This document shows, piece by piece, positions 26,482 through 62,922 of a stretch of 64,000 bases of DNA. The position numbers and the translations under genes are program-made. The notes under the pieces were generated by a model, which was not told the DNA's origin, made no database searches, and saw only the letters and a program-made list of their open reading frames with translations. Within the stretch, counting starts at the first letter, position 1; every line of letters starts with the position of its first letter. Source of the stretch: Chthoniobacterales bacterium (lineage in GTDB: Bacteria > Verrucomicrobiota > Verrucomicrobiia > Chthoniobacterales > UBA10450); the NCBI GenBank assembly GCA_035274845.1, contig DATENU010000024.1, positions 62,001-126,000 of the forward strand, written 5' to 3'.

Positions 26482-26560
26482 TTGGAGTATTGGAGTAGTG
26501 GATTGATGGGAAAGCGGCGATTCGACATTACCCCATTACTCCATTACTCCATTACTCCAA
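26482..26560. repeat. tandem-word hairpin upstream of rpe (GGAGTAAT words)
   Basis: The left arm 26482-26509 contains repeats of TTGGAGTA. The right arm 26533-26560 consists of four copies of CCATTACT/CCATTACTCCAA-type words and is its inverted complement with about five mismatches in 28. The right arm ends on the A of the rpe start codon. Confidence 0.8.
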
Positions 26561-54540: not shown

Positions 54541-55050
54541 TCAGGCAGCGGAGTGATGCTCGCTCGATTTCGCCCCGCTCACGACCAGCTTCCGGCCCAG
54601 AAATTCCTTGTCGTGCAATTCCTCAACGGCGCGCTTGGCTTCGTCGACAGTTTGCATCTGGACAAAGGCGAACCCTTTCGAACGCTGATTATGTTTATAG
54701 GTCACGACTTCGGCGTTCTGGACTGCGCCGACCCCGTTGAAGAGCTCGAACAAGTCGCTCTCCGTCGCATCAAACGACAGGTTCCCGACGTAAAGCCGGG
54801 GCGTAGTCACTTCGACTGCTTCCGGCTTGCGCGAGGGGCGTGACGGTTCCGAACCGTTGCTGCGGGGTGACTGCATCGGCCGAGCCGCCGGTTTTCCGCC
54901 GCCGGTGAAAAAAGCCGTGATTTTCTGCCAGAACGATTTCTTCGCTGGTGTGCGCGAGGGCGCACTCTGGTAGCGCGGGCGATTGTCGCCCCTTCTGCGG
55001 GAGCCGCCGCGTGGTCGCCGGCCGTTCCTCCCTGATGAATGAGATGCCAT
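54541..55050 (-). CDS. RRM RNA-binding protein
   Basis: A 169-residue RNA chaperone-like protein. The N-terminal 80 residues are basic and Arg/Gly/Ser/Pro-rich. A single RRM follows, with RNP2 LYVGNL (86-91) and RNP1 KGFAFVQM (125-132), both with the aromatic RNA-contact residues. Bacterial RRM proteins of this type are often cold-induced. Ribosome site GAGGATCAAT precedes the ATG. The gene has its own terminator and a long untranslated leader of about 300 bases if the promoter near 55345 is correct. Confidence 0.93.
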   Translation of the reverse strand: MASHSSGRNGRRPRGGSRRRGDNRPRYQSAPSRTPAKKSFWQKITAFFTGGGKPAARPMQSPRSNGSEPSRPSRKPEAVEVTTPRLYVGNLSFDATESDLFELFNGVGAVQNAEVVTYKHNQRSKGFAFVQMQTVDEAKRAVEELHDKEFLGRKLVVSGAKSSEHHSAA

Positions 55051-55372: not shown

Positions 55373-55405
55373 GGGCGGCCTGAACCGCCGCCGAGCTGGC
55401 AGGGG

Positions 55406-55522
55406 AAAACGTCCAACGTCCAACGTCCAACGCTCAACATCCAACGTCGAATTCCAGAGCAAGCAGCTTGCTCCCCTCTCCTATTTCGACGTTGGACGTT
55501 GGACGTTGGACGTTGGACGTTT
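55406..55522. repeat. tandem-word hairpin at the end of the epimerase gene (GTCCAAC words)
   Basis: The left arm 55406-55451 has five or six copies of the seven-base word GTCCAAC. The right arm 55485-55522 is its inverted copy. The two match except that the left arm has exactly one extra seven-base unit (CTCAACA). The right arm overlaps the last 14 codons of the epimerase gene. Confidence 0.88.
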
Positions 55523-56476
55523 GTTTTTCTCCTTTTGCTTTGCCCGGAACCAATCCACGAACTTCGGCAGCCCCGCGCTCAACGGCGTCGTCGGGTTGTA
55601 CCCCAACAGCCTCCTCGCCTTCGAAATATCCGCGCAGGTCAGCGGGACGTCACCGGCCTGTTCCGGCAGCTGATTAATCGTCGCTTTCTTTCCGACCGTC
55701 TTTTCAATCGCGGCAATCAGGTCTTTCAACTGGATCGTCTCGCTCTCGCCCAGATTGAACAAATCGTAGAGCGGCCCGTTGTAATCGAACGCGGCCATCA
55801 CTCCCTGGATGATGTCGTCGATGTAGGTGTAGTCGCGCCGCGTGGTTCCGTCACCGAATTGGTTGATCGGTTCGCCGGCCAGAATTTTCCGCGTGAACTG
55901 ATGGATCGCCAGGTCGGGCCGTTGTCGCGCGCCATAGACGGTAAAAAACCGGAGCGCCACAATCCGCATTTGGTAAAGATGCGAGTAAGTGGAGCAGAGA
56001 AACTCTCCCGCGACTTTCGTGGCCGCATACGGACTGATTGTTTGGGTGAGACGGAACTCTTCCGAAAATGGAACTTCCTTGCAGATCCCGTAGACCGATG
56101 AGCTCGACGCGAAGATGAACCGGCCTACGCCCGTCTGCCGGGCGGCGTCCAGAAGATTCAGGGTCCCGCCAACGTTCGTCTCGTAATAAAGCTGCGGTTG
56201 CTGGATCGACGGCCGCACCCCGGCTCGCGCGGCCAGGTGCGCGACCGTGTCAAATTTCTCGTTCTGAAAAAGCTGCGTCACCGCCGCGCCGTCGCGCAAA
56301 TCGAGCCGATGAATCGGGACCTCAGCGGCGAAGGCTTCAACGTTGGCCCGCTTGATCTGGGGATCGTAAAAGTCATTGAAATCGTCGATGATCGAGACTT
56401 CGTGTCCGGCGGCGAGTAATTTCTCGACGAGGTGCGAGCCGATAAACCCTGCCCCGCCCGTGACCAGAATGCGCAT
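55481..56476 (-). CDS. NAD-dependent nucleotide-sugar epimerase (UDP-glucuronate epimerase-like)
   Basis: A 331-residue SDR-fold enzyme that epimerises or dehydrates UDP-sugars for surface glycans. The NAD motif GGAGFIG is at 7-13. The catalytic triad region has SSSSVYG and Tyr150-x3-Lys154 (SPYAATK). The sequence resembles UDP-glucuronate 4-epimerases (RANVEAF, RRDYTYIDDIIQG, FNLGESETIQL). The last 12 or so residues (RPTSNVQRPTSK) are encoded by the tandem-word element and are not part of the fold. It is divergent from the methyltransferase gene. Confidence 0.9.
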   Translation of the reverse strand: MRILVTGGAGFIGSHLVEKLLAAGHEVSIIDDFNDFYDPQIKRANVEAFAAEVPIHRLDLRDGAAVTQLFQNEKFDTVAHLAARAGVRPSIQQPQLYYETNVGGTLNLLDAARQTGVGRFIFASSSSVYGICKEVPFSEEFRLTQTISPYAATKVAGEFLCSTYSHLYQMRIVALRFFTVYGARQRPDLAIHQFTRKILAGEPINQFGDGTTRRDYTYIDDIIQGVMAAFDYNGPLYDLFNLGESETIQLKDLIAAIEKTVGKKATINQLPEQAGDVPLTCADISKARRLLGYNPTTPLSAGLPKFVDWFRAKQKEKNKRPTSNVQRPTSK

Positions 56477-61792: not shown

Positions 61793-61855
61793 CAGCAAAT
61801 GGACCCGGCACGTCAGCAAATGGAGCCGGCACGTCAGCAAATGGAGCCGGCACGC
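61793..61855. repeat. three 21-base direct repeats upstream of the permease gene
   Basis: The unit CAGCAAATGGAGCCGGCACG(T) occurs at 61793-61813, 61814-61834 and 61835-61855 with one or two base changes. The third unit runs into the CCGGCACG palindrome of the GGAGCCGGC composite element. The repeats sit at the ribosome-site position of the permease gene. Confidence 0.85.
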
Positions 61856-61974: not shown

Positions 61975-62922
61975 TCATGATCTCGGTTTCAAAAGAGCGT
62001 CGTAGCCCTGCGAGTAAGCCGTGAAGACGTCTTCCATGTCGGGTTCCACCCATCGGTGGCCGCGCCATTTCAGACCGTCGAACGGCCATTGCGTTTCCCA
62101 TTCATGGATGAGCTTCTCGGGATCGGCGGCATAAAGGCGGAGCGCGCCGCTCCGGAGCGAAACGCCAAGAATGTCGGATTGTTCCCGCAGCCGGACTAGC
62201 GCCGGCATTACCGGCTCGACGTCGATTTCGAGCAGCTTCGTCCGGAAGCTTTCCTTGAGTTCGCGCGGCGGCGCTTTGGCCAGGAGCCGGCCTTCCTCGA
62301 TGAAACCGACCTCCGTACAGCGTTCCGCCTCATCCATGTAATGGGTCGTGACGAAAATAGTGATCCCGTGGTTGCTCAGGTCGTAGAGCAAATCCCAGAT
62401 CTGCTGGCGATGAACCGGGTCGAGGCCGGAAGTCGGTTCGTCCAAAAACAGGAGCGGCGGATCGTGGACCAGCGCGCAAGACATAGCCAGCATCTGGCGC
62501 ATGCCGCCGGAAAGTTCGCCGGCCATGGCGCGCCGTTTCTTTTCCAGGTCGGTTAGTTTCAAAAGGCGCTCCAGCCGCTCGGGGATTTCGTGGCGCGGCA
62601 CCCGGCTGGCGCCGGCAAAAAAGCGGATGTTCTCCTCGACGGTCAGATCGCGATAAAGACTGAACCGTTGCGCGACATAACCGAATCGGCTCCGCGCCAG
62701 GTGGCGTTCCTTCCAGACATCGATACCAGAGATGGCGGCCCTGCCACTGGTGGGATGAACCAGGCCGCAGAGCATGCGGATCGTGGTGGTTTTCCCTGCG
62801 CCATTCGCCCCGAGAAAGCCAAAAATGGTCCCGGGCAAAATCGACAACGAGAGATCCTGGACGGCCTTGGTGTCGCCGTAGGATTTGCTCAGGCGGTCGA
62901 GAAAAATGGCCGGTTCGCTCAT
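61975..62922 (-). CDS. ABC exporter ATPase subunit
   Basis: A 315-residue ATPase of a DrrA/CcmA-type export pair. Walker A GANGAGKTT is at residues 38-46. RFGYVAQRFSLYRDLTVEENI carries the Q-loop. The ABC signature LSGGMRQMLAMSCAL, Walker B PPLLFLDEPTSGLDP and the switch histidine in FVTTHYMDEAERC are all present. The permease gene lies downstream on the same strand after 184 bases of palindromic repeats, so the two may be coupled only loosely. Confidence 0.93.
   Translation of the reverse strand: MSEPAIFLDRLSKSYGDTKAVQDLSLSILPGTIFGFLGANGAGKTTTIRMLCGLVHPTSGRAAISGIDVWKERHLARSRFGYVAQRFSLYRDLTVEENIRFFAGASRVPRHEIPERLERLLKLTDLEKKRRAMAGELSGGMRQMLAMSCALVHDPPLLFLDEPTSGLDPVHRQQIWDLLYDLSNHGITIFVTTHYMDEAERCTEVGFIEEGRLLAKAPPRELKESFRTKLLEIDVEPVMPALVRLREQSDILGVSLRSGALRLYAADPEKLIHEWETQWPFDGLKWRGHRWVEPDMEDVFTAYSQGYDALLKPRS

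Follow-up and report, generated by a model that had tools for sequence, protein, structure and literature searches.

A two-armed array of the seven-base word GTCCAAC lies at positions 55406-55522 of the window, the 64,000-nucleotide stretch analysed here (contig DATENU010000024.1 of a Chthoniobacterales bacterium, positions 62,001 to 126,000), where it overlaps the 3' end of an epimerase gene. This array belongs to a short repeat dispersed in the genome, which probably acts like a selfish miniature element. The most likely description is a heptamer-built repeat that behaves like REP and Rickettsia palindromic elements (RPE) and shares tolerant slots with competing repeats. We observed that the repeat is dispersed, has common edges and a narrow unit number, shares its slots with other repeats, contains a nested palindrome, and is biased in orientation inside genes.

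GTCCAAC recurred throughout the 4.54 Mb genome of this soil bacterium. The pattern GTCCAACGTCCAAC, with at most one mismatch, gave 97 matches at about 35 places (reversed control, 4), and the exact 15-mer of GTCCAAC gave 33 matches (control, 0). These counts bear out the original prediction, made from the window's letters, that a real seven-base array lies here, and show that it is not due to chance. Tandem seven-base units thus stand at many places far above chance, as in heptamer repeats of the STRR and GGGNATC type. In less selected sequence, period-7 arrays exceeded arrays of neighbouring periods and involved several words. All genomes compared were draft assemblies.

The 39 arms in the own genome share their edges. 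The outer edge is purine-rich and ends in AAAC or GAAC in 34 of them, and the last unit is often GTCGAAY, followed by TAG, TAAGAG or TTCAGA. Five units were present in 24 arms and four in 10. Another 40 places from two congeners gave the same picture, and across all 89 arms of the three genomes the unit number was narrow (three units, 5 arms; four, 22; five, 48; six, 8; seven, 6). Inverted pairs, which can form a long hairpin, occurred at 16 of 72 sites. The other 56 sites were not paired; a single arm is a direct repeat that forms no hairpin and is not a palindrome. The variant pair GCTCAAC-ATCCAAC recurred in unlinked arms (4 observed, 0.4 expected), although this pair was picked for the statistic only after the arms had been seen. 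With respect to genes, 56 arms face gene starts, 21 face gene ends and 12 lie inside genes; because genes were called with a simple codon-usage caller, the counts near gene starts are approximate.

The anatomy of the window copy is given in the table below; no Rfam family matched the array above its gathering score. The original prediction described the arms as identical apart from one extra unit on the left. The left arm is indeed longer by one unit, but when the two are aligned from their inner edges, three units also carry substitutions, and for that reason the pair was overrated as direct evidence for unit gain or loss. The claim that the right arm reaches into the epimerase gene at its 3' end and encodes a tail, RPTSNVQRPTSK, ahead of the TAG proved right, as did the placement of this tail beyond the SDR fold: the best solved homologue aligns with residues 1-311 only, and homology stops near residue 311-316. 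The 12-residue tail was not conserved among the 37 relatives examined, most of which terminate about 10-20 residues sooner; in three (L048, L062, L068) the tails look coded by other heptamer words. Rather than a constant unit number and a conserved tail, we found a tail absent from relatives and a unit number that varies from 3 to 7 between arms and species. To see here a local array that gains and loses units nevertheless misses the dispersed element with shared edges and mostly four to five units.

Features of the window, with positions counted from its first nucleotide
Feature	Position	Strand	Description
Left arm	55411-55452	+	GTCCAAC x3, GCTCAAC, ATCCAAC, GTCGAAT; 6 units, read outside-in
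Outer edge of left arm	55401-55410		aggggaaaac, purine-rich
Right arm	55484-55518	-	GTCCAAC x4, GTCGAAA (read on -); 5 units; pairs with left arm
Loop separating the arms	55453-55483		includes palindrome GAGCAAG-CAG-CTTGCTC at 55457-55473
Epimerase stop codon	55481-55483	-	TAG; part of loop
Array-coded C-terminal tail of epimerase	55484-55519	-	RPTSNVQRPTSK
Epimerase/dehydratase gene	55481-56476	-	extended-SDR nucleotide-sugar type, 331 aa
RNA-recognition-motif-like gene, downstream	54541-55050	-	bounds, with the epimerase gene, the slot compared across species
21-base repeat	61793-61854		unit CAGCAAATGGAGCCGGCACGT, three near-perfect copies (97% matches)
8-base repeat	26526-26559		unit CATTACTC, about four copies

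The unit is free of stop codons and its length of seven is coprime to three, so all three frames of the GTCCAAC strand give one cyclic peptide, RPTSNVQ. An array in this orientation therefore leaves the reading frame open at any site of insertion. Array-coded tails were found in three genes, trpC (RPTPNVQRPTSN), cca (PPTSNVQRPTSN) and the epimerase gene, all in one common frame and all ended by a stop from the inner edge of the arm, which is the TAG in the case of the epimerase.

Arrays also lie within conserved genes. In the own genome they occur inside dxr, cysS, trmD, hemW (N-terminal), thiC and a gene for a metal-type membrane protein, and in congeners inside uvrB, tgt and the gene of a B12-linked G protein. 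Each of the 12 arrays within genes had GTCCAAC on the coding strand (11 distinct genes, taken as independent; three at predicted N-termini). These copies are single arms of 28-42 bp. TrmD has 12 additional residues compared to its closest solved homologue, and at this place heptamers are lacking from the TrmD of four congeners. Like RPEs, the arms are thus in-frame insertions in unrelated conserved genes that are absent from homologues. At the thiC slot of the own genome (L154:1494-1600), the GTCCAAC array is directly followed by a GTCATTC array (SSFVIRHSSF) in one reading frame.

We compared the slots of the epimerase, dxr, cysS, trmD, tgt, uvrB and B12 G-protein genes and ten further slots across species; these comparisons are firm in coding regions and less so in intergenic ones. 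None of seven congeners matched the own genome at the epimerase 3' slot, which holds GTCCAAC arms there, a GTCATCCTGAGC-type palindrome in G004, G005 and G007, a different inverted repeat in G006, and no heptamers in G001, G002 and G003. In G009, from another genus, the same slot carries GTCGAAC-type arms, and there is a tail of its own (RRTSNAEHRTSNS). The tgt slot holds a repeat-rich insert in all eight genus members, drawn from several repeat families, and the B12 G-protein slot holds GTCCAAC-type arrays in four genus members and AAATCGA-type arrays in three. At the cca slot we observed GTCCAAC hairpins in the own genome and G005, a GCCGAAC/GCCCAAC hairpin with both arms altered in G007, and a hairpin of the unrelated word GGTTGAG in G006.

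Word abundance is species-specific. Exact 15-mers of GTCCAAC, GTCATTC and AAGCTCC numbered 33, 12 and 0 in the own genome, 56, 47 and 2 in G005, 3, 63 and 73 in G006, and 56, 0 and 0 in G003; AAGCTCC, with 73 matches in one congener, was absent from six of the other seven genus members. In G056, from the same order, the reversed control of the GTCATTC pattern (GCTTACTGCTTACTG) gave 240 exact matches genome-wide, so that GCTTACT is apparently a very abundant heptamer word of that genome's own. A palindrome, CCCGCC...GGGCTCCGCCGTGGCGAG, is nested between heptamer units at at least six places in congeners. It stood between heptamer units in 6 of the 8 copies seen (L283, L291, L295, L216, L251 in G005, L343 in G002, L231 in the own genome), and the one copy that came from an unselected sample of the own genome lies directly against a heptamer array of the AAATCCC type. 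This palindrome may prefer heptamer arrays as its target.

We propose that copies arrive as whole arms through a putative copying process that would favour purine-rich tracts. Purifying selection would then retain only in-frame insertions in tolerant linkers, termini or spacers, and competing repeat families may displace each other there. Arms are flanked by purine-rich sequence on both sides, which points to a purine tract as the target; such a target would also explain why copies within coding sequence are in sense orientation. In the window, a two-armed copy would have settled at the epimerase 3' end, where its right arm may have turned into a dispensable tail. Such a course would need no benefit of the repeat to the cell.

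Several points weigh against the proposed selfish element. The purine-rich edges could belong to the element and not to its target. Exact empty sites with target duplication were sought at 18 slots and none was found; the congeners are too diverged (~75-88% identical) or carry another repeat. No mobiliser was identified. That many repeat types share slots could be due in part to short seeds that expanded in place, and the AAATCGA arrays at trmD resemble the flanking AAA-CGA-AAA of congeners without these arrays.

A specific version of this reading is that a Y1 transposase of the genome, of the RAYT/TnpA-REP type, moves the heptamers, which would then be an unusual REP/REPIN class with inverted pairs as the REPIN form and single arms as the REP form. 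We regard this as unlikely, although it has more to recommend it than the other alternatives. The own genome encodes nine Y1_Tnp domains, Y1 genes are present in 52 of 58 relatives, and the arms occur as singlets and inverted doublets, as REPINs do. Heptamer count correlates with Y1 count within the family (rho 0.42), but no more strongly than with genome size (rho 0.47). We inspected the sequence on either side of all nine Y1 genes: the seven stand-alone genes lack heptamers to a distance of 800 bp, and the repeats flanking the two inside valS and carB were other palindromes. Wherever a repeat is visible beside an own-genome Y1 transposase, it is a palindrome and not a heptamer array; copies do not flank a cognate gene as REPs flank their RAYT gene. 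The end of carB does carry heptamers, with the Y1 domain inside the carB frame about 1.9 kb away. A REP is a short palindrome tagged with GTAG or CGTC, a form that a single arm lacks. Independently of the heptamers, we observed that whole Y1 domains lie in frame inside valS and carB of the own genome (L161:1644-5036, L162:1517-5437). Among relatives (L317-L331), several other genera have a Y1 domain at about the same place in carB, and further ones lie in metH (two places), alaS, clpB and recG. Pfam places both the host domains and Y1_Tnp in a single open frame, and short palindromic repeats flank the insertions.

It is less probable still that two-armed copies were recruited to terminate transcription or, as hairpins, to stabilise 3' ends, and are retained for that function. 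The window element folds at -76 kcal/mol as RNA, the arms at the cca slot of the own genome, G005 and G007 still pair despite their differences in word, G006 has the hairpin form with another word, and four congeners have other palindromes at the epimerase 3' slot. Paired sites are a minority, however, heptamers are missing from that slot in three congeners, and we rejected a terminator role in general, since the majority of arms point towards gene starts or sit within genes. Ordinary slippage, which the original prediction implied and by which each array would have grown in place from a seven-base seed through polymerase slippage, is very improbable. The unit number does range from 3 to 7 between arms, and heptamers are the commonest mid-length simple repeats (cited in PMC4679880). 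Yet slippage alone predicts neither one word with common edges at about 35 unlinked places, nor inverted pairs, nor different words at one slot across sister species, and the narrow unit number also speaks against it. We rejected local slippage alone as the main cause because of the shared edges and the dispersal. We give equally little credence to a templated process, such as a putative reverse transcriptase or break-repair polymerase that would add whole seven-base units to a ...AAAC 3' end. If such writing did occur, each lineage's word would be set by a changeable template. The constant AAC at the outer edge, the small range of unit numbers, the sense orientation within purine-rich coding tracts and the replacement of whole words across sister species would all be explained by such a process. 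No enzyme of this kind was found, and no search was aimed at one.

Among the simple repeats of medium length in bacteria, heptamers rank with the commonest, and they are little explained. In the GTCCAAC repeats they take the form of an element that has edges, varies little in size and uses a word specific to the species; the slots it occupies are conserved although what they contain changes. The slots in TrmD, DXR, CysS, UvrB and Tgt form a natural series of accepted in-frame insertions, and are useful for asking how selfish DNA gives rise to protein linkers in core enzymes.

In-frame REPs and heptamer repeats are each known already. To our knowledge, a heptamer-built form whose words turn over at conserved slots is undescribed; among open-access papers we found nothing specific on heptamers in Verrucomicrobia or Planctomycetes, which is weak evidence. 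The GGGNATC heptamers of Xanthomonas and Nostoc prefer four units, a preference that has been linked to G-quadruplexes (Rehm et al. 2015, PMC4692102), and their placement relative to open reading frames is similar to that of GTCCAAC arms. GTCCAAC differs from this subtype in having no G-tract (no GGG on either strand), so the G-quadruplex link cannot hold for it. Since a word without G-tracts prefers four to five units, G-quadruplex formation cannot be the general reason for such a preference. The cyanobacterial STRR and the heptanucleotide repeats of the tRNA-Leu intron P6b include heptamers that pair into a hairpin, in P6b (PMC3488679). Unlike GGGNATC and STRR/P6b repeats, GTCCAAC arms lie in frame and in sense inside conserved proteins, take an inverted-pair form, and have different words as counterparts at the same slot in sister species.

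The TAACTGA direct repeats of marine Beggiatoaceae (MacGregor 2015, PMC4679880) are likewise dispersed heptamers by gene starts, some overlapping the ends of open reading frames. Read forwards, TAACTGA contains stops, and it is found mostly immediately upstream of starts, whereas GTCCAAC leaves all frames open and also occurs within core enzymes. REP/REPIN elements with RAYT (PMC3733652, PMC3116915) resemble GTCCAAC in occurring as singlets and inverted doublets, in their intragenic copies, which include intragenic REPs in the verrucomicrobium O. terrae (PMC3733652), and in the presence of Y1 transposases in the genome. GTCCAAC differs in that its heptamers do not stand beside Y1 genes and its single unit is not palindromic. 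RPEs (reviewed in PMC10969869) are, like GTCCAAC arms, short and in frame in many unrelated conserved genes, to which they add peptide; they are palindromes of about 150 bp, whereas GTCCAAC forms heptamer arms of 28-42 bp, single or paired.
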